This document shows, piece after piece, positions 6,170 to 18,812 of a stretch of 28,671 nucleotides of DNA. Position numbers and translations under genes: made by a program. Position 1 is the first letter of the stretch, and each line of letters begins with the position of its first letter. Origin of the DNA: a virus; IMG/VR virus record IMGVR_UViG_3300042565_001473, positions 1 to 28,671 of that record. One strand, given 5' to 3'. Below the pieces are notes generated by a model. The model was not told the origin of the DNA. It saw only the letters and a program-made list of their open reading frames with translations, and did not search any database.

Positions 6170-6559
6170 ATGAAAAAAACACTTTTAATCATCGCTCTGG
6201 CAACGCTTACGAGTTGTGCCACAATCACTTCCAGCATGAAGCAGGAAGTAACTATCAATGTTAAACCTGACCATGCTAAAGTTTATGTGAACGGCAACAA
6301 GGTCGGAGAAGGGTCATGCGTTGCGGAAGTACCCGTAAAAAAACGCAACACTATTGTAGTCAAGGCTGAGGGATACGAAAACGCTCAAATCAAAACTAAC
6401 CGCCAAATCCGACCCGGCTACCTTATCGGGAATATCGGGATGTGTTTCGTGCCGTATGTAAACTTCTTTGGCTTACCAAGTTTGATTGTTGATGCGTGTA
6501 CGGGTGCGTGGTACAAGCAGGAAGAATCGGATTATTATTTTGATTTGGATAAAAAATAA
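6170..6559 (+). CDS. PEGA-domain-like lipoprotein, possible moron
   Basis: The 129-residue protein begins with a lipoprotein signal peptide MKKTLLIIALATLTSC with lipobox LTSC and acylated Cys16. Residues 27-75 look like a PEGA domain (TINVKPDHAKVYVNGNKVGEG, then VPVKKRNTIVVKAEGYE). A glycine-rich hydrophobic segment (RPGYLIGNIGMCFVPYVNFFGLPSLIV) follows. Proteins of this layout are common in Bacteroidota envelopes. It stands alone between the divergent early and late modules and is closed off by a strong terminator, the layout of a moron: an accessory gene expressed separately from phage functions. Superinfection exclusion or envelope modification is plausible but inferred. Confidence 0.75.
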   Translation: MKKTLLIIALATLTSCATITSSMKQEVTINVKPDHAKVYVNGNKVGEGSCVAEVPVKKRNTIVVKAEGYENAQIKTNRQIRPGYLIGNIGMCFVPYVNFFGLPSLIVDACTGAWYKQEESDYYFDLDKK

Positions 6560-6657: not shown

Positions 6658-6665
6658 TATATTTG
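6658..6665 (+). promoter_or_regulatory. Late promoter -7 box before the terminase genes
   Basis: TATATTTG matches the TAnnTTTG -7 box. No TTTG lies 19 nt upstream; that position is occupied by the terminator stem, so the -33 element is weak or replaced by an activator site. The surrounding TTTTTTCGTAT(A/C)TTTGC is repeated before the tape measure gene (9761-9775), suggesting a shared late-promoter variant. A small AGTT/AACT stem (6669-6681) starts 4 nt after the box. Confidence 0.55.
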
Positions 6666-7211: not shown

Positions 7212-8539
7212 TGCCCGAACTGAACGAAGCACAGCAGATAGCATACTACTCCAGCCATCACCTCGAAGCGGAAGAGATACACATGCTGACGGGCGTTGGA
7301 GTGGGCAAGACCTACTGGCTTGCGGTCGATTTGATTCCAGACCTATCAGTCCCCAACTCAAAGCATTTGATATGCTCGCCCACATTCGCAATGATGAAGA
7401 CCGCCACATTCAAAAAGGTTCAAGAGGCTTGGGAAGAGTGGGGACTTCGTGAGGGCGTGGACTATGTCGTGAATAAGCGGATGTCGGGCGTCAAACCATA
7501 TTCGGGCATATCTTCGGACAAAGTAATTACATTCCGATGGGGGTCTTATGTTGTCCTGACCCACCTCGATAACTACAATGTTGTGAACGGCTCAGAGTGG
7601 GACACTATCAGCATTGACGAAACAAGAGATGTGCGGAACTTTCAGGAGGCTTTGGACAAGTGCCGAGCAAGGACGAGAGGCACGACTTTCAAGAAGTTAG
7701 GTTTACGCCACCGAATTAAGACCGCCACAACACCGCCCGATAATGTCGCCTATTATCGGGAATTGGAAAGCCAAGCCAAGACCAGCAACGGACGAATTAA
7801 ATTAATCCGAGCCGAATCGTATGCGAATCAACACAATTTAAGACCCGGCTACATCGAGCAGTTAGAACGCACCCTCGACCCGAACTCATTCAAGCGTGAG
7901 GTGTTGGGTATGCTCGTCACCAAGCAGGAGACGGTCTGGGCGTACTGCTTCGAGCATAAAAAGCATGTGGCGGATATTCAGGAAAGACCCGACCTGCCTA
8001 TATTCGTATCAATGGACTTTAATGTTAGTCCAATGACCTGCATTTACGCACAGCACGACCCAAGCCGAAATAGAATCAGGATATTAGGCGAAGAACGAAT
8101 CATGAACTCGGATGTGTACGAACTATGCGAACGCATCCGCACCAGATACCCCGATACTGCTCGCCTCATCCTGACTGGTGACGCATCAGGTCGCAACCGC
8201 TCAGCCACGATGAAAGGCGTCACGAACTGGAAAGCGGTTAAGGGTGCGTTGAAACTATCGGACGCCCAGATACGCCTGCTCTCGTCCAATCCTGATAGCA
8301 AAGACACGATTGTATTGATTAACTCGATGCTATCGAAGCATCCTGACATTGTCATTAACCGAGCGTGCAAATATCTGGTCGAGGATTGCGAAATGATGCA
8401 GAGGGGTGATGATGGCAAGAAGATTGCCACGACCAATATGCACGGACACTTGTTTGACTGCTTTATTTACTACCTCTGGACATTTCACAGGTCATTTTTG
8501 GATAGGTTCGCAAAATCGGGTAACTTTGCCAGCGTATGA
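7211..8539 (+). CDS. terL: Terminase large subunit (ATPase/nuclease)
   Basis: The 442-residue protein has the two-domain layout of TerL. In the N-terminal ATPase, TGVGVGKT (27-34) is a Walker A with Thr in place of the first Gly, CSPTFAMMKT is the adenine-motif region, and DTISIDE (131-137) is Walker B with catalytic Glu137; CRARTRG lies shortly after. In the C-terminal RNase H-like nuclease, SMDF (Asp269), TGDASG (Asp324) and HGHLFDCF (Asp416) supply the metal-binding acidic triad. It pumps DNA into the prohead and cuts the concatemer. A GGAGGA sequence in the end of terS serves as ribosome binding site. The last 4 nt overlap the next gene. Confidence 0.97.
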   Translation: MPELNEAQQIAYYSSHHLEAEEIHMLTGVGVGKTYWLAVDLIPDLSVPNSKHLICSPTFAMMKTATFKKVQEAWEEWGLREGVDYVVNKRMSGVKPYSGISSDKVITFRWGSYVVLTHLDNYNVVNGSEWDTISIDETRDVRNFQEALDKCRARTRGTTFKKLGLRHRIKTATTPPDNVAYYRELESQAKTSNGRIKLIRAESYANQHNLRPGYIEQLERTLDPNSFKREVLGMLVTKQETVWAYCFEHKKHVADIQERPDLPIFVSMDFNVSPMTCIYAQHDPSRNRIRILGEERIMNSDVYELCERIRTRYPDTARLILTGDASGRNRSATMKGVTNWKAVKGALKLSDAQIRLLSSNPDSKDTIVLINSMLSKHPDIVINRACKYLVEDCEMMQRGDDGKKIATTNMHGHLFDCFIYYLWTFHRSFLDRFAKSGNFASV

Positions 8540-9078
8540 GCAACTTAAAACCAATTTACACTGACGCAAACGGCATCGAGTGGCGGACATTCGAGACTTG
8601 GGGCGATATACCTGCGAATCGGGTAATTCCTGCCGACCTTGCCGTTCGCAGGGCATCAATGGGACTAACTCCCGACCGACTCGTTAAAGCGTTCAAGGAA
8701 ATCAAAGACGACCTGAACAGGGGCGATATTGTCGGTGGCTTCTCCAAGTTCGACCAACTTGAAAGGCGGATTGCTGACATTCCTGATGAAATGCTTCTGC
8801 AAGATTTGGCTTGCGTATTCGTGGTCCATCCCGATGAAGAACCGATGGATTTCGACCCCAAGATGCAACGGGTAAAACTCGAACTCTGGGCAAAAGATGA
8901 CGATGCTCGGTTTTTTTTTATTCAGTTGGCAGTACGCTATACAATGGACTTATCGGACATCTCCGACGCTTATATCCGTTCGCTTATCCTTCAAAGGACT
9001 TTGATGGAGTCGAGCGACCCAAGCACGAGTATCTTTCCCTTGGAAGAAACTGGGCTGACGAGTTCAGCACTTTCGTGA
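8536..9078 (+). CDS. Tail assembly chaperone, short (gpG-like) product
   Basis: The 180-residue zero-frame product has an N-terminal part (about 1-125) resembling, from memory, a Bacteroidota phage family found just upstream of the tape measure gene: IYTDANGIEW, then ADLAVRRASMGLT, then LNRGDIVGGFSKFDQLERRI, then LLQDLACVFVVHPDEEP, then ELWAKDDDARFFF. By analogy with lambda gpG it would coat the tape measure protein during tail assembly. Codon 126-128 are TTT TTT TTT inside a run of nine T's. Beyond this run, the -1 frame continues open to 9227 and gives a protein-like extension, so this reading frame's last 52 residues may be the minor or even the less important product. It overlaps terL by 4 nt. 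Confidence 0.7.
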   Translation: MSNLKPIYTDANGIEWRTFETWGDIPANRVIPADLAVRRASMGLTPDRLVKAFKEIKDDLNRGDIVGGFSKFDQLERRIADIPDEMLLQDLACVFVVHPDEEPMDFDPKMQRVKLELWAKDDDARFFFIQLAVRYTMDLSDISDAYIRSLILQRTLMESSDPSTSIFPLEETGLTSSALS

Positions 9079-9227
9079 CCGAGGTGAATCTTATGCACCG
9101 GATGCTTTGTAACGGGTCATTGACCGAAATTAAAATGCTCGAAAAGATGGGAATCGAGGAGTACGCTTCGACCGTGAACGCATGGAAGTACGAACTTCAC
9201 CTGAAACAAAAAAGCGTCAAAGTATGA
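8536..9227 (+). CDS. Tail assembly chaperone, -1 frameshift fusion (gpGT-like)
   Basis: Slipping back one nucleotide on the T9 run (8911-8919) joins the first 128 codons to a 102-codon extension, giving a 230-residue fusion. The extension is charged and well-formed (for example GRNWADEFSTFVTEVN and KMGIEEYASTVNAWKYELHL). It ends at TGA 9225-9227, overlapping the next ATG. The canonical heptamer T TTT TTT is in the correct phase. A 5-bp TCGGA/TCCGA hairpin lies about 33 nt downstream, further than usual for a stimulator. Lambda G/GT and most siphophages make a low percentage of such a fusion from the gene just before the tape measure. A sequencing error in the homopolymer would also join the frames. 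Confidence 0.65.
8911..8919 (+). promoter_or_regulatory. Candidate -1 ribosomal frameshift slippery site
   Basis: Nine consecutive T's follow CGG and precede ATT. In the zero frame they are TTT TTT TTT, so a T_TTT_TTT heptamer in the correct phase exists, and both tRNAs can re-pair fully after a one-base slip backward. Confidence 0.65.
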
Positions 9228-9293: not shown

Positions 9294-9413
9294 ATGGGTA
9301 TAGGACGCAAATTAAGAAGAGGAACATTACGACCTGTTGTGGATGAAAACGGGAATGTGCTGTTTTTTATCGACAAAAAAGGCAGGCGGATTGACCCGCT
9401 GAAACAAATATAA
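9294..9413 (+). CDS. 39-residue basic hypothetical protein
   Basis: The ORF starts 1 nt after the stop of the 22-residue peptide (MGIGRKLRRGTLRPVVDENG) and contains a short beta-hairpin-like stretch VLFFIDKKGRRIDPL. It is strongly basic at the N-terminus. No family is recognised. A GGAGG lies just after its stop and could support translation of the next gene. Confidence 0.45.
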   Translation: MGIGRKLRRGTLRPVVDENGNVLFFIDKKGRRIDPLKQI

Positions 9414-9434
9414 GGAGGTTGCGTTTAAGGGGGT

Positions 9435-9758
9435 ATGATAACAAGAACCGAATACGAAAAAGCATTAAAAATTGTCAAAGAATATAATAGGCAATCTATT
9501 TTTGAAAAGACAATTGGTCATTATGACAATGACAAAGAATTAATAAAAAAATCCCCTTTGCATGAATTTTTGTCTATTAGGGTTGCAAATGCTTTGTTTT
9601 CTCAAAACGGCATTTATATTAGTAGGTGGGATTCAAAAGTTGAAGATTTATCAAAATTATCTCGAGCCGAATTGTTTAGAATCAGGGGTATAAGACATAA
9701 GGCAATTATAGAATTAGAGGCTTTGTGCGAATTGGCTGGGATTAGTTTATTGCCGTAA
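9435..9758 (+). CDS. RNA polymerase alpha-CTD-like protein (late module)
   Basis: The 107-residue protein has an N-terminal helical segment (TEYEKALKIVKEYNRQ) and a C-terminal domain (about 41-105) closely resembling RpoA alpha-CTD. LSIRVANAL matches LTVRSANCL of E. coli RpoA, with Arg49 and Asn52 at the places of the UP-element contacts Arg265 and Asn268. VEDLSKLSRAELFRIRGI then matches the IGDLV...VELL segment, and IIELEALCELAGISL the last helix. A loop of about 8 extra residues lies between the first two helices. A purine-rich AAGGGGG precedes the start. The gene is visibly more A+T-rich than its neighbours, a hint of separate origin. A role in recruiting or redirecting host polymerase is inference. 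Confidence 0.7.
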   Translation: MITRTEYEKALKIVKEYNRQSIFEKTIGHYDNDKELIKKSPLHEFLSIRVANALFSQNGIYISRWDSKVEDLSKLSRAELFRIRGIRHKAIIELEALCELAGISLLP

Positions 9759-9766
9759 TTTTTTCG

Positions 9767-9832
9767 TATCTTTGCCCTGACCGCCCCGGTCATTAGGCGA
9801 ATCGCCATACAAAGGATAATAATCGAATTGAT
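9767..9832 (+). promoter_or_regulatory. Late promoter -7 box and double-hairpin leader before the tape measure gene
   Basis: TATCTTTG (9767-9774) matches the -7 box; a clear TTTG at -33 is missing. Four nt later comes a perfect 6-bp hairpin, TGACCG (9778-9783) with CGGTCA (9787-9792), then a second hairpin from the palindrome GGCGAATCGCC (9796-9806). The untranslated leader would be about 50 nt. Hairpins at the very 5' end often protect mRNA from decay. Confidence 0.55.
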
Positions 9833-12136
9833 ATGGCTCAAAATATAATATTCCGTGTAGTTGCCGACACCCAGCCAGCAGTGGATGGGATGAACAAACT
9901 CGGCAACGCTACCGACAAGACCAAGAAGGATGTTAGCCAATTAGACCAAGCACTTGGCAAAATCGGTACGATGGTCGCTGGTGCGTTTGCCATTGATAAG
10001 ATAATTGAGTTTGGCAAGGCAGTATTGAAAGCCACTGCTGAGATGCAGAACTTGGAGGTCAGAATGAAAGACCTTGCTGGGTCAAATGACGAGGCTGTAA
10101 AAACATTTGGCGACCTCAAGCAAATGGCGAACGATTTGGGGTTGTCATACAAGTCGCTTACTACTAATTATATTCAATTTACCAGTGCTGCAAAAGCATC
10201 TGGCATGGAGGTCGATAAGGCATCAAGGATATTCAAATCGATGACCATTGCACTGGCTGGTACGGGAGCCAGTTCAGAGCAGACCAAGAATGCAATGACC
10301 GCACTTACTCAAATGATTGGGAAACAGAAGATTAGTGCCGAAGAATTGCGACAACAACTTGGGGAAGCCATGCCGTCTGCGTTTGGTATCATGGCTAAAG
10401 CATTAGGGGTAACAACTAAGGAACTTGACAAGATGATGGCGTCTGGGCAACTACTTGCCAATGAAGTTCTACCCAAGTTTGCAGAGGAGGCAGAGCGTGC
10501 ATTTGGTGGCAATACGGAAAAGATGGCAGGTAATATTCAGGCTAACTTGATGCGATTACAAAACGCTTGGGAGGGTTATATGACAAGCCTCGGAGAGCGG
10601 TTTTATGGTAGTGGAGGCGGTGCTGAGGTGCTTGCTGATATGCTAAATTGGTGGACTAATATCAACCAAACACAAGAGCAATATATTCAAAATGAAAGAA
10701 TGCGTTTGCTTGCTGACTACAAGCAACAAGACCAAGTCAAAGAGCAAATAGCAAACCTTGAAAAAGAAAAAAAGAGCGAGGAAGAAATTATTCAGGTATT
10801 AGAAGCGAAAATAAAAGAGCAGGAAAAGATTGCGAGAGGGTATGAAAATATTGGCGGTTATCAGTTTCTAACAGGTGTTGAACTTACCGCAGAAGAAAAG
10901 GTCGAAACGCTAAAACTTATCAACGCAATGAAGCAAAAAGTGCAGTTGATGAAGGATGAGATTAAAGAGCGAAACAAGCCGAAGCCACTAACAAAAGAAG
11001 AAATAAAAGAGGCGGAAAAGGCACGAAAGGCAAGAGAAAAGGAACTTGCAGAAAAGAAGAAGTTAGAAGACCAAGAGTTTGAGGATAACCAGAAGCGGAG
11101 GGAAGGTGAATTTAAAGTTGATAGAGAAACTGAAGCGGCTTATGATAAATTTGAGATAGAAAGGCAAAAGGATAAGCAAAGTAAGGCTGAGGAATTAGCA
11201 AAGAAAGGGGCAAAGCAACTCGAAATTGACAAAGAGGCGGAAAGGGTCATAAATCAATATTTCTACAATGAGGACTTAGCACTGCTTGACGAAAAGCATA
11301 AGCAGGGATTATCAAGCGAGGAACAATACCTACAAGACCTACTCGAACTACGCAAAAAGTACGGGATGGATGTTGGCGATGTTGAAAAAAATATTACCAC
11401 AAGCGATGTCGATAAAAAGAAATTACAAAAAGCACAGATAACCAAATTAGCAGGCGAGACAGCACAAGGCGTTACCGATACCGTGCTTGCATATAAGCAA
11501 AAGGAAATAGATGGGGAAAGAGATATGGTTGAAAAGCAACGGCAGGCAGGGTTAATAAGTGAAGAGCAGTACGACCAACAGATGCGAGCCATTAAACGGA
11601 AGCAAGCCATTGCAGACCGAATCGCTGCGATTGCTCAGATTGCGATTAACACAGCGATAGCATTGACCAACCCGACCAACATAGCATCATTCGGGGCAAT
11701 ATCGCCATTCATCATCGCATCGGGTGCAATCCAAGCCGGTATCGTCCTCGCCCAGCCTCTTCCGTACAACAAAGGAACGAAACGAGTCCCAATGATGCGA
11801 GGTGCGGTTCGTGGTCGTGATTCTGTTCATGCCATCCTGACTCCAGACGAGCGAGTCGTACCGGCTGACATTAATATGCAGCCCGGTTATTCTGCTTTGC
11901 TTGACTTGGCTCAGGACAAAAAGATTAGCGACAAAGAGGCTGGATTCTTGGCGGAGTTGGCAACATCAGGCATGAGGCGAACAGGAACGCAACAAAGTAT
12001 TGACCCAGACATAATCGGGAAAGCAATAGCCAAACATATTCCTCACACGAATGTGGCTATAAACGACCGAGGCATTGCGGTTATTACCGAGCGCAGCCAA
12101 ACCGAAATACGCAGACTTAGGAGGAGGATAGGCTAA
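9833..12136 (+). CDS. Tape measure protein
   Basis: The 767-residue protein is a tail-length ruler. The N-terminal part (about 1-260) matches the lambda-type tape measure N-terminal domain: MKDLAGSNDEAVKTFGDLKQ, then ALTQMIGKQKISAEELRQQL, GEAMPSAFGIMAKALGV, then LPKFAEEAERAFGG. Residues about 280-560 are a long, highly charged coiled coil (Glu/Lys-rich). A hydrophobic segment (about 590-640, AAIAQIAINTAIALTNP...) could insert into the host membrane. The C-terminal VHAILTPDERVVPA resembles the common tape measure end motif. Length implies a tail of roughly 100 nm if most of it acts as ruler. It abuts the next tail gene with a 1-nt overlap. Confidence 0.95.
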   Translation: MAQNIIFRVVADTQPAVDGMNKLGNATDKTKKDVSQLDQALGKIGTMVAGAFAIDKIIEFGKAVLKATAEMQNLEVRMKDLAGSNDEAVKTFGDLKQMANDLGLSYKSLTTNYIQFTSAAKASGMEVDKASRIFKSMTIALAGTGASSEQTKNAMTALTQMIGKQKISAEELRQQLGEAMPSAFGIMAKALGVTTKELDKMMASGQLLANEVLPKFAEEAERAFGGNTEKMAGNIQANLMRLQNAWEGYMTSLGERFYGSGGGAEVLADMLNWWTNINQTQEQYIQNERMRLLADYKQQDQVKEQIANLEKEKKSEEEIIQVLEAKIKEQEKIARGYENIGGYQFLTGVELTAEEKVETLKLINAMKQKVQLMKDEIKERNKPKPLTKEEIKEAEKARKAREKELAEKKKLEDQEFEDNQKRREGEFKVDRETEAAYDKFEIERQKDKQSKAEELAKKGAKQLEIDKEAERVINQYFYNEDLALLDEKHKQGLSSEEQYLQDLLELRKKYGMDVGDVEKNITTSDVDKKKLQKAQITKLAGETAQGVTDTVLAYKQKEIDGERDMVEKQRQAGLISEEQYDQQMRAIKRKQAIADRIAAIAQIAINTAIALTNPTNIASFGAISPFIIASGAIQAGIVLAQPLPYNKGTKRVPMMRGAVRGRDSVHAILTPDERVVPADINMQPGYSALLDLAQDKKISDKEAGFLAELATSGMRRTGTQQSIDPDIIGKAIAKHIPHTNVAINDRGIAVITERSQTEIRRLRRRIG

Positions 12137-13887
12137 TGTTACAGGTCAAGATTAACGGCACACCGATACAGGGCAGGATTGAGGGATTGGAAGACTTTAC
12201 GCTGAATTACTCCCGTGATTCCGAAACGGGTCGGACGCAAAAGTCATACACCAATCAGTTGAAGTTCTACGATGATGCGTTCAACATAATTTACCCCTTG
12301 ATGGTAGCCAATCCAAACGGGTTAAATCAATCTGCTAATGTCGAGGTATGGGACGACTGCTGTAATGCCCCCGTATATCGCGACCTTATCATTCGTGGCG
12401 ATATGGTTGACTTTTGTACGGGAGATTGCTTCGTAACGGCACGATTGACCCGCCAAGACCCAGACGAGTTGATTTATCAATGTTTGAATAAAAATGAGAT
12501 AAGTTCAAACAAGAATGGGTACTTCAATTATCCATATACCGACCCGATAACAGGTCAGACTAATTCAAATCCACGATTCCCCCTCGTTGTATATTGCAAC
12601 GAATTACGCCCGAACTGGTTGATGGCGTACATATTGGCATTGACACTTTTAAATTTATATCTATCTTATTTTGCACTGCCACTTCTCATTGGCATAATTG
12701 TAACTATTACAATTTGGCTTTATTCAGTGTGCCAATTTATGCGTGGCGTTGAGAATTTATTAAACTCATTTTTCCCGGGCAATCCCGTTAATATTACTCC
12801 CCCAATTTGTGATAGTTTAATTGATGACCCATTTTTCATAATCAACGAATTGAAAAGGTTTATGGATAGGGTCTTAGAAAATGTCATCGGTTGCGGTCGT
12901 AAACACCCGACTCCATTGTATCGCCAATATGTCGAGAACGCTTGTCAGATATGTGGCATCAACCAATTCAATTCATCAATATTAAACGACCCGAACAGCG
13001 AGTATTACAACGCATTATACTTCAACGCCCCAGCCGATGCAGGTAGTCGTTCAGCCGTTGGCTACATTAGCGAGAATAGACCAACCGCCACGATGTCAAG
13101 TTGGCTCGATACGATTGCCAAAGACTTCAACGCTCGATGGTGGATTAGTCAAGGGCAATTATACTTTGAGCGAAAAGATTATTTTTTGAACCAGCCTGTA
13201 ATTTATGACGCTGATATAAACCAAGAAACAGGCGATATATTGGAAGGCGTTTGCTTCACATACAACGAGGGCAAATTATTCTCCTCAATCAAAATAGAAT
13301 CGACGATGGACGCCTTAGACGATGTAGGCAACGAGGATAGGAATAGATACACGGTTTATTTCGATTACGGCTCAAATCCGAATTGGGAGGGGGCGAATAA
13401 GAAGATGTTGTCCTATTCACCAAGCCGTTATCGTAACGATGGCATCGAAGCGGATATATTGACATTTTTCAGCACACTGCCATTCGCAAACCAATTATTC
13501 TTGGGCAACTTCGCACAATACTCCCGTGCCTTGCTTATGGCGAAAGGCACTGCGTCAAACCCGAAGATGTTAATCTGGGACGGGCAGAGTTATACGGATG
13601 CCTATGTTAAAATTTACAACGGCGTTCAGAATATGCCTGCAATGGTTAATTCGGGGCAGTCTGATTTATACGATAAATTCCACCGCATTGACGACCCAAA
13701 CATTAACCCATTCCGATTCTGGAACGCTGAACTTACGGTAAGAGCCAACTGCCAACTCGTACAGCAACTCGATGTAAACAGAACCGTGCGACTACGCACA
13801 CCATACGGGGCGATTGTGAATGCCCGAATCAATCAAATCAACGCTAACTTAGGCGAAAGAACAATTCAATTTACTTGTGAATTCTAA
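12136..13887 (+). CDS. Tail tip / baseplate hub-like protein with membrane hairpin
   Basis: The 583-residue protein follows the tape measure gene, where distal tail and hub proteins sit. Residues about 320-360 contain SSWLDTIAKDFNARWWISQG and LYFERKDYF, similar in style to the hub domain of gp27/gpD-like late control proteins. The C-terminal part (PYGAIVNARINQINANL) also fits a hub beta-domain. Unusually, residues 162-202 are a strongly hydrophobic stretch of about 40 residues, long enough for two membrane spans, flanked by cysteines and prolines. This part of the gene is locally A+T-rich. It may be buried in the tip and released to help DNA cross the inner membrane; that role is inferred. 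Several cysteines (CC at 75-76) are present. Confidence 0.7.
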   Translation: MLQVKINGTPIQGRIEGLEDFTLNYSRDSETGRTQKSYTNQLKFYDDAFNIIYPLMVANPNGLNQSANVEVWDDCCNAPVYRDLIIRGDMVDFCTGDCFVTARLTRQDPDELIYQCLNKNEISSNKNGYFNYPYTDPITGQTNSNPRFPLVVYCNELRPNWLMAYILALTLLNLYLSYFALPLLIGIIVTITIWLYSVCQFMRGVENLLNSFFPGNPVNITPPICDSLIDDPFFIINELKRFMDRVLENVIGCGRKHPTPLYRQYVENACQICGINQFNSSILNDPNSEYYNALYFNAPADAGSRSAVGYISENRPTATMSSWLDTIAKDFNARWWISQGQLYFERKDYFLNQPVIYDADINQETGDILEGVCFTYNEGKLFSSIKIESTMDALDDVGNEDRNRYTVYFDYGSNPNWEGANKKMLSYSPSRYRNDGIEADILTFFSTLPFANQLFLGNFAQYSRALLMAKGTASNPKMLIWDGQSYTDAYVKIYNGVQNMPAMVNSGQSDLYDKFHRIDDPNINPFRFWNAELTVRANCQLVQQLDVNRTVRLRTPYGAIVNARINQINANLGERTIQFTCEF

Positions 13888-16800
13888 TGGCAAATAATCA
13901 AACTATCACGGTCGGGATAGACCGCAACTGGAACATAAACTTCGGTAACTTATGCGATGGCGACACAGTTGAATTGCGTCTGTGCAACTATGACGGAGGC
14001 ACGCATACTGGCTCACTTCGAATTTGTGGGTGCGAGGCGTTTACATTTGTACCTACTACATTCACGCTTGCCCCGTGCCAATGCACCACGATAACAGCGA
14101 CATTCAACGGCAACGGCTATCCCGGAACTGGCAACTGCTTTATCGAAGTTGATTTTAACAACCGCAAGAGTTTTGTCAATCTGAATTGGAACGAAGTATA
14201 TTGCGACATTGAAGAACTTGACTGGACATTTGGCGACCTGAATAGTTCAATAATATTACAAAGAAGAACATTTAATGCCGAGTGCGACACAACGGACAAT
14301 TACGCATTTGCCCAAGCCGTTTATTTGCAGAGAGATTTACGAGTCGCTCAGCCACTTGTTGCAGGCGATGAGTTATTTCTTAGTCAGTGGTTATTCGCTC
14401 AGATAGTTGATTGGTCGTATCAAAGCTATCCGGTCGCAGGATGGAAGACCCGTATCTGCTTACAACCAGCAGGAGAGGGCGAAGACCCAAGCGTTGATGG
14501 TACTTATCAAATGGAGTGGTACGGACAGCAACCAAGCGAAGAGAACAGCCAAGACACGCCTTATGTTTATGCAACCGTATCAGGCAACGGCTCGCAAGTA
14601 ATTTATCGGGTTGAGTTCAATTTACCCGAGGACAGCCTGAACCCACCGAGCAACTTCCCACTTGCCAACCATCGGATACTTTTAGCCAACTCGACACGGA
14701 ATGAAGTTGAGTTGAACAACCAAAGCGAGAACTCGATATACCGCAACTTGAAGTATATGAGTTGGGCGTTTGTCGTGTATCGCTCAATCGGCTCGGTTTA
14801 TCAGGATGACATCTTTTCGATTCGTGGTAAATTCCCATTCGAGAAAGAGGGCGTTGGGGCAAGTGCAGTCAGTTTCTTTTTGCTATCAACGAGCCTTACA
14901 ACGCCAACGGGTCAGCCTACTCAATACCTTTCGACCATACGCCAGACTAAGGTGCGTGTGGACTTCCAATTTGCCGATAACAATGTGACCGGCACACCAC
15001 CTACCGATATGTGGGTGTATCTGATACGCAACGATTCGCAGAACAACCAACTCGACTACTACGAGAACTACGAGTACGACCAAGCCGACTTGACCAACTC
15101 AGTGGCAGGTAATGTTATTACACCCGTAACGCCTCCGACCAACATCACCTCGAATGAGTTCTTTGCCGAGTTTGATGTGTTGAATCTAAGGCAGGATTTG
15201 ACGGGCGTTGAAAATATATCCAACAATTACCGATTTATATTCATAACGACCAGTGCATTAGACAGACAGAGTCGGTCTTGGATAACCGAACCGATTCAAC
15301 TAATCAACTACGATGACCAAGACCTAACACTAACGGGTGTTGAGGCTAAGTTCAGGACGGTTGAACAGGAATACGCAGGTACGGTCGGAACGCTGTTAGG
15401 TACTTGCGTCAATATGAATTTGGAAACGGTACTACAAGCCAATTTGCCACTATTAGACGCAGAAGTACAAGCCAAGACGGGCGGATTAATTACGACCGCA
15501 TTCGAGGCGTATCGTGGTGCGACATTGAGCATTTACGAGCAATCACCTTTGACTGGCTCGACTTTGCTCAACACGCAATACTTCGGTGCAAAAGGTCAGT
15601 TAATTTGCGACAAGGTAACCGACAACGGACTTGACCCGATAGTAAACAACTCGCAAGGGGCAAATATAGATTTGGTCTTTCCATTTACCATACCCGACAA
15701 TGTTTACCGCAAGATAGGCAGAGAGGGGTTGTATCAATCGGATATAAACAACTCGAACTCTTGGTCTACATTAAGCCTTGCCTCGCTCAGTTGCGTTCAG
15801 AATCGGACAAGCGACCAGTGCGATGTGTTGTTTGCTTTGCCGGATATTTCGGGTGCAGACAATCCCGAATACATGACATACATACCCGATACAAATGAGG
15901 TGTGGGTGTGTAATTTTGCAAACCATACAATATCAATTATTGATGTTGCAACTCTTGCCATAACAGCCACCATAACACTAACAGCAGGCGATGCCCCTGA
16001 GGGTATTGTTTATGTGCCTCAAAAGGGGTGCTATGCAACATTAAGAGGAGCAAACACAACCGTATTAATTAACATCTACACAAGGTCAATAACGGCAACA
16101 ATAGCAACACCAACAGCACCAAGACAAATAATTTACGCACCAAGCATAGATAAACTTTTTGTTTTTTGTGCAAGTGCAAATCTTTACGAAATTGACCCAC
16201 AGACCAACACAATTACAAACGGATTAAACACATTCCAGACAAATGGTCAAAGCATAACATACTACGCAGGTAACGATTCGCTTTATACCGTTGCAAATGG
16301 CTCAAGTGACTTTGTAATAACACCTCGCAGTACATTTGTTCCAAGCGCCCCTATATCCGTTCCTGCTCAGCCATTTTCGGTATTTGCCTCAGCCAATAAT
16401 TTATGGATTGCCACCAGCAACACGATTGAGGTTTACGACTACACCAATACGCTCATAACTTCATTATCATATCCTGCATTAGCAGGTCGCTCAATAATCG
16501 AAAACGCAGGTATAATCTATGTTGGCGATGCAGGAAGCAATGTAGTTAGGTTGATTGACAACACCACATTCAGCGAAATTGCAACATATCCTGCCGTAAA
16601 CAATCCAAGACGCTTGTTATTCGGTGGCGGTCATTTGTGGCTATCTCAATTTACTTCCGATTCCGTCCGCCCCTACCTGCTCGACTGCAACGACTCGCTT
16701 CCCCCGTTCACGATGGTCAATCGCAACATCAACCTGAATTGGGACTTGGAGTTTGAGTTCTTCGACAACACCGAAATTTACACCATCACGCAGGAATTGA

Positions 16801-17180
16801 ACAGGCCAAGTCCGAGCAAGGTAGCCGACTTCATTAATGACTTTGTTGATATTATTATCGAGGAAGAACCGAACGATGGCACACCAACACCGATACCAAT
16901 CGACAACCTTTGCCCAACAACGGGTCAGGTCATTGTAACTGCAAACTTTTTCACACCAAAAAGAGTCATGTCGGTTGGAATTGAATTACAGCCAGTGCGA
17001 GGCGGTATGGTTAGTTCCGAGTCGTCTGCTTCGCCTATATCAATACCAAGCGATTCGCCTTACATCTATGACCTCACACCTGCATACGGCACGACAAGTT
17101 CGGTTCAGTTCAAGATTGATACGCCATCTTTGAACTTGACAGGCGATTATGAAATAGTACTTCACTTTATTACACAATAA
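13887..17180 (+). CDS. Large cysteine-rich tail protein with internal YVTN-type beta-propeller
   Basis: The 1097-residue protein is probably a tail tip or receptor-contact protein by size and position. Residues 1-105 look like an Ig-like domain rich in Cys (ICGCEAFTFVPTTFTLAPCQ). The middle (about 105-650) is beta-rich with no recognised family. Residues about 654-931 contain about seven repeats of the YVTN/NHL beta-propeller type, with blade motifs such as MTYIPDTNEVWVCNF, TISIIDVATLAITATI, GIIYVGDAGSNVVRLID and GGHLWLSQF. The protein then returns to a tail-like domain (FTMVNRNINLNWDLEFEFFD to the end). The propeller DNA is more A+T-rich than both flanks, which suggests an inserted module, perhaps for receptor binding. 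The start overlaps the previous stop by 1 nt. Confidence 0.7.
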   Translation: MANNQTITVGIDRNWNINFGNLCDGDTVELRLCNYDGGTHTGSLRICGCEAFTFVPTTFTLAPCQCTTITATFNGNGYPGTGNCFIEVDFNNRKSFVNLNWNEVYCDIEELDWTFGDLNSSIILQRRTFNAECDTTDNYAFAQAVYLQRDLRVAQPLVAGDELFLSQWLFAQIVDWSYQSYPVAGWKTRICLQPAGEGEDPSVDGTYQMEWYGQQPSEENSQDTPYVYATVSGNGSQVIYRVEFNLPEDSLNPPSNFPLANHRILLANSTRNEVELNNQSENSIYRNLKYMSWAFVVYRSIGSVYQDDIFSIRGKFPFEKEGVGASAVSFFLLSTSLTTPTGQPTQYLSTIRQTKVRVDFQFADNNVTGTPPTDMWVYLIRNDSQNNQLDYYENYEYDQADLTNSVAGNVITPVTPPTNITSNEFFAEFDVLNLRQDLTGVENISNNYRFIFITTSALDRQSRSWITEPIQLINYDDQDLTLTGVEAKFRTVEQEYAGTVGTLLGTCVNMNLETVLQANLPLLDAEVQAKTGGLITTAFEAYRGATLSIYEQSPLTGSTLLNTQYFGAKGQLICDKVTDNGLDPIVNNSQGANIDLVFPFTIPDNVYRKIGREGLYQSDINNSNSWSTLSLASLSCVQNRTSDQCDVLFALPDISGADNPEYMTYIPDTNEVWVCNFANHTISIIDVATLAITATITLTAGDAPEGIVYVPQKGCYATLRGANTTVLINIYTRSITATIATPTAPRQIIYAPSIDKLFVFCASANLYEIDPQTNTITNGLNTFQTNGQSITYYAGNDSLYTVANGSSDFVITPRSTFVPSAPISVPAQPFSVFASANNLWIATSNTIEVYDYTNTLITSLSYPALAGRSIIENAGIIYVGDAGSNVVRLIDNTTFSEIATYPAVNNPRRLLFGGGHLWLSQFTSDSVRPYLLDCNDSLPPFTMVNRNINLNWDLEFEFFDNTEIYTITQELNRPSPSKVADFINDFVDIIIEEEPNDGTPTPIPIDNLCPTTGQVIVTANFFTPKRVMSVGIELQPVRGGMVSSESSASPISIPSDSPYIYDLTPAYGTTSSVQFKIDTPSLNLTGDYEIVLHFITQ

Positions 17181-18734: not shown

Positions 18735-18812
18735 TACAACCTCTCCCAGAGGGTAGGCAGTTTGCCATATTTCGGGAACATAAAAATCGTTCTCACTACT
18801 AAACAAATCAAT

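Follow-up and report, generated by a model that had tools for sequence, protein, structure and literature searches.

The window, the whole 28,671-nucleotide stretch of viral DNA that was analysed, carries at 9435-9758 (+) an ATG-initiated ORF encoding a protein of 107 aa. The ORF precedes the tape measure gene (9833-12136, +; PHROG tape measure families, E 5e-48), as the initial annotation had stated, and no other gene lies between the promoter of that gene and a 39-aa ORF at 9295-9413 (+). Together with a 21-base leader, GGAGGTTGCGTTTAAGGGGGT, the 107-aa ORF makes up a 345-bp cassette (9414-9758, +). In the alignments of occupied and empty sites, the TAA stop codon that closes the 39-aa ORF marks the left border of the slot, and the cassette follows it directly. 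On the other side the cassette extends to just short of the tape measure promoter, whose -7 box TATCTTTG (9767-9774, +) is conserved in all slot states and forms the right border. When the 345-bp insert was shuffled 20,000 times, a 108-codon open frame survived in only 4 cases. The G+C content of the cassette is 32.8%, compared to 44.5% in the window, and the GC3 of the ORF is 27%, compared to 42-61% in the other genes checked. In consensus scans, the cassette showed no promoter-like or terminator-like site suitably positioned for the ORF; its matches to TAnnTTTG and to sigma-70-like promoters fall inside the ORF itself.

Related IMG/VR contigs were then grouped by the state of this slot, giving 10 occupied (window included), 12 empty and 3 alternative contigs. 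The 107-aa protein was present in 9 further contigs, invariably in the same slot and invariably 100% identical, and all 345 bp were base-for-base identical in every carrier, so that the known copies of the gene offer no covariation. For eight of these nine, the 200 bp upstream differed by 4-4.5% and the 200 bp downstream by 2-20%, with differences of up to about 40% in the DNA beyond; the ninth, L003, was nearly identical to the window throughout. The empty contigs (L014, L015, L017, L020, L021, L024-L028, L030 and L031; terminase 98-99% identical) run from position 9413 straight into 9759, with a few bases at the junction. In the three alternative contigs (L018, L019 and L023) the slot is taken by a 116-aa ORF that is unrelated but has a similar 21-base leader, which suggests a hotspot for gene swaps. 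The 39-aa ORF was retained across all three states in the close group. A more distant relative, L029 (80% in terminase), is also without the 107-aa gene. When the 1 kb upstream was used to build a tree, occupied, empty and alternative contigs were partly interspersed, with weak supports. Based on the comparison of occupied and empty sites, the identity of the copies and the G+C content, the 107-aa gene is a recently acquired, optional and horizontally moving insert. The 116-aa ORF (L018:12219-12566, +) showed weak matches to coiled-coil-type families, far below cut-off. The shared leader GTTNCGTNTAAGGGNGTATGA was considered as a general insertion signal and rejected, as it occurs in this slot only. 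When bacterial genomes were searched with the terminase, no host or prophage was found.

The resemblance of the 107-aa (late) protein to alpha-CTD was assessed by profile comparison. Aligned by hhalign to a profile of eight solved alpha-CTDs, residues 46-105 matched profile positions 7-59 with 28% identity and a probability of 83% (P 9e-6), and the probability was 87% with a wider alpha-CTD profile; two control proteins from the same phages gave 1.6% and 0.3%. When 1051 ORFs of this phage group were scanned profile against profile, only the late protein (83%), the alleles of a second, early protein (69-86%) and the early protein of an 80% relative (92%) exceeded 60%, and the next ORF reached 6%. 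The alpha-CTD likeness proposed in the initial annotation was therefore upheld at the profile level, with values of at most 6% outside the alpha-CTD-like set. A profile of seven solved alpha-CTDs scored the protein at 13.3 bits, a value that no shuffle out of 20,000 attained. The sole match in the whole PDB (E up to 10) was the P. gingivalis RpoA alpha-CTD (E 1.1), and the two NCBIfam matches were the RpoA model (E 0.043) and NF005841 (E 0.11, residues 40-104), the latter of which, when run on the whole window, found ORF 9435-9758 alone (E 0.0055); taken singly, the individual E-values of the alpha-CTD matches are weak. The Pfam search (E up to 10) gave no match to PF03118, leaving the protein below the gathering cut-off, the PHROGs scan gave no useful match, and no distant homologues were found in INPHARED phages, plasmids or GTDB genomes. 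The single-sequence AlphaFold2 model, made without homologues, had a pLDDT of 51, and such models of the late and early proteins were too poor for fold comparison. Judged by these alignments, the 107-aa protein is remotely similar to alpha-CTD, with a whole-domain similarity that is statistically sound and weaker per residue than first claimed.

The aligned residues 46-105 span the entire alpha-CTD (PF03118; for example P. gingivalis 8dkc chain A, 260-330), and helix 1 is followed by about 7 extra residues before the next segment. Residues 1-45 form an N-terminal extension, and unlike RpoA the protein has no alpha N-terminal dimerisation/assembly domain. The initial annotation had equated LSIRVANAL with LTVRSANCL of E. 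coli RpoA, and the hhalign alignment agrees, pairing L46-S-I-R49-V-A-N52-A-L54 with L262-T-V-R265-S-A-N268-C-L270. The motif by itself was rejected as sufficient evidence for alpha-CTD, since 5,022 of 100,000 shuffles were as good as this half alone, which is mildly better than chance; most of the signal came from the C-terminal half (residues 68-105). Further equivalents are L72 (L281), L80 (L289), K89 (K298), E93 (E302) and a counterpart of G311-x-S-L, and R82 stands in for K291. The DNA-contact residues Arg265 and Asn268, described earlier as conserved, thus have their equivalents in R49 and N52, joined by K89 for Lys298. Substitutions were found at A53 (C269), G85 (N294), R87 (G296) and A90 (S299), and the N-x-G-K-K-S hairpin/contact set (N294/G296/S299) is not kept. 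In place of the acids at 259 and 261, the sigma-contact determinant of alpha-CTD, the protein has H43 and F45. The DNA-binding face thus appears to be partly retained and the sigma-facing one lost. In E. coli, R265 and N294 enter the minor groove while K291 and K298 bind the backbone (PMC7822876), and DNA binding depends critically on R265 and N268 (PMC11434276). Because the equivalents of Asn294, Gly296, Cys269 and Ser299 are altered, the predicted DNA binding may be weakened or lost.

The early alpha-CTD-like protein (85 aa; 295-552, -) gave an hhalign probability of 84% (P 8e-6), so the late protein stands at the same profile-profile score level. No BLASTP alignment was obtained between the two, in keeping with the earlier description of the late protein as a different one with an N-terminal part and an inserted loop. 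Unlike the late gene, a mobile insert, the early gene belongs to the core of the close group and shows purifying selection (pN/pS 0.06; 95-100% aa identity among relatives); it is present in every close-group contig that covers its 554-1075 neighbour and the YqaJ gene. In the early protein the R265 equivalent is kept and that of N268 is Arg; the early protein of the 80% relative (L057:647-898, -) keeps both (STRAFN) and scored 23.9 bits with the Pfam alpha-CTD model against a cut-off of 23.8. By eye, the product of gene 554-1075 is SSB-like.

Free-standing proteins of related type were collected by scanning IMG/VR with a degenerate motif and by searching INPHARED at the protein level. Phage proteins of 137 aa with an N-terminal extension and an alpha-CTD were found in L076, L077, L087 and L090, the gene of L077 lying a few genes upstream of terminase. 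Others combined the domain with a zinc-ribbon-like part (200 aa; L074, L084) or with HTH or sigma-region-4-like parts (L080; MT835636, 332 aa, which has both), or carried two alpha-CTDs in one protein (L075), and further examples were QDP42789.1 of Bacillus phage vB_BmeM-Goe8 (210 aa) and gp24 of Microbacterium phage Morrill (139 aa). Those of L076/L077, Goe8, Morrill and MT835636 are all free-standing with the alpha-CTD in the C-terminal part, and those of L076/L077, Goe8 and Morrill share the plan of the late protein, being small with an N-terminal extension and a C-terminal alpha-CTD. Unlike the late protein, the proteins of L076/L077, Goe8, Morrill and MT835636 pass the Pfam threshold (43-78 bits), and the late protein has no full-length sequence relation to them. 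NF005841 (PRK07758), a 95-aa uncharacterised family, we take to be a family of free-standing alpha-CTD-like proteins because the model also matches RpoA-bearing control genomes. The late protein is likewise small but, with 11.9-12.8 bits against a cut-off of 115, is not a member. Free alpha-CTD proteins thus recur in several unrelated phages, and on the best reading the late protein would be a diverged case. In the literature searched, no functional study of free-standing phage alpha-CTD proteins was found. The proteins of L075, L080, L074/L084 and L053, with tandem alpha-CTDs or with an alpha-CTD joined to a sigma-region-4-like HTH or a zinc-ribbon-like part, form a set of phage transcription factors that seem not to have been studied. 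Many copies of one prophage repressor (LIRIEGMKRKSLSEID) from the IMG/VR scan were discarded as chance motif matches that are not alpha-CTD.

The window contains 37 sites of the TAnnTTTG -7 box, which is typical of Bacteroidota, where 24 were expected. The late promoters at 6658, 9767 and 18727 were retained in the empty- and alternative-slot contigs covering them, at about 92-100% identity over 75-121 aligned bases and with unchanged -7 boxes. At promoter 9767 the three slot states have only TTTTTTCGTATCTTTG and the leader in common. All sequence lying more than about 9 bases before the -7 box differs between them, and the insertion replaces the upstream DNA. Since this upstream DNA is not conserved, there is no sign of an upstream element at this promoter.

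The initial annotation had suggested that the two alpha-CTD-like proteins form a stage-specific system, the late one possibly supplying the function of an alpha-CTD where late promoters have a weak -33 box. The alpha-CTD-like sequence, the position in the late block and the TAnnTTTG boxes at the late promoters are in its favour, and the presence of a second such protein in the early block was borne out. However, the same promoters persist, where the contigs cover them, in 12 close relatives without the gene and in 3 with a replacement, an observation that the initial annotation itself had named as refuting. Because many phages with these promoters do without the gene, the 107-aa protein is not required for them. 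The unconserved DNA upstream of promoter 9767 also speaks against such an activator, as does the missing alpha-NTD, the tether that brings alpha-CTD to the polymerase. The linkage of the two proteins did not stand either: the early and late genes are not an obligate pair, because contig IMGVR_UViG_3300031857_002968 carries the early gene alone. The late-activator reading is largely refuted by the gene-less relatives and we regard it as extremely improbable.

We place about half of our confidence in a different reading, namely that the insert is an optional moron cassette encoding a remote homologue or mimic of alpha-CTD with a conditional accessory role. From its slot between the tail-chaperone genes and the tape measure promoter, and apparently having no promoter of its own, the cassette would be expressed by late-operon read-through from promoter 6658. 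The domain may bind A+T-rich minor grooves via R49, N52, R82 and K89. Since it has no alpha N-terminal domain, the protein cannot be an ordinary RNA polymerase subunit, and would most likely act at host promoters late in infection, as an accessory factor or as a free competitor that binds DNA; the early promoters of the phage itself may be an alternative target. The gene would be of advantage under certain conditions and would not serve a core function. Its action on host transcription is a prediction.

Among the competing explanations, a generic helix-hairpin-helix DNA binder acting outside transcription, in DNA protection, packaging, recombination or superinfection exclusion, would suit a gene that sits among packaging and tail genes and escapes the Pfam alpha-CTD model, and alpha-CTD itself has a helix-hairpin-helix type fold. 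Both NCBIfam matches and the sole PDB match are, however, alpha-CTD families and not other families of this fold, and the first half of the domain, LSIRVANAL, shows the alpha-CTD pattern; we hold this to be a tentative possibility on the unlikely side. Less probable, and in our view plainly unlikely, is an alpha-CTD decoy that would target host activators or sigma instead of DNA and shut down host transcription. A small free alpha-CTD-like domain encoded by an accessory, horizontally moved gene would fit this, host-takeover genes often being of that kind, but the sigma-contact acids 259 and 261 are H43 and F45 and the DNA-contact set is better kept. Mere chance resemblance in a short helical protein, which the 28% identity and the restriction of homologues to identical copies would allow, is very unlikely given that 0 of 20,000 shuffles scored as well and that a clear gap separates the protein from all other ORFs in the profile-profile scan. 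A broader proposal is that free-standing alpha-CTD mimics form a recurring toolkit of phages of this group, in which the conserved early protein would retune host RNA polymerase and the movable late one would add or change promoter preference. We consider this plainly unlikely as well; if true, alpha-CTD domains would be exchangeable trans-acting promoter specificity factors.

Under the preferred reading of an optional moron cassette, the locus presents a very small, diverged alpha-CTD protein, and phages that naturally have or lack it at a single precise site offer a ready-made comparison for the role of such a protein. The case is also a caution that a gene missing from many close relatives should not be taken as a sign of a late regulatory system.

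Several other features of the window were recorded. The tail-chaperone-like gene (8536-9227, +) ends in frame 0 at 9078, and a conserved open -1 frame (...EYLSLGRNWADEF...) runs to 9227 and is matched in L029 (...PYLSLSTNWADEY...); this looks like a G/GT-type programmed frameshift near CTTTCCCTT, at about 9034-9042. The leaders of two late transcripts (9775-9840 and 18735-18790, +) have in common a hairpin followed by TAGGC-loop-GCCATA. The stem varies among relatives with partial compensation (GGCGAATCGCC, GGCATCACGCC, GGCGTAGTGCC), folding was not clearly better than that of shuffles, and Rfam gave no match for either leader. A large tail-region protein (13887-17180, +) had no Pfam match and shows by eye YVTN-like repeats (...IPDTNEVWVCNFANHTISIID...). 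Between the early and late blocks, 6170-6559 (+) encodes a putative lipoprotein with a PEGA domain (E 7e-7), possibly a surface or superinfection-exclusion protein.
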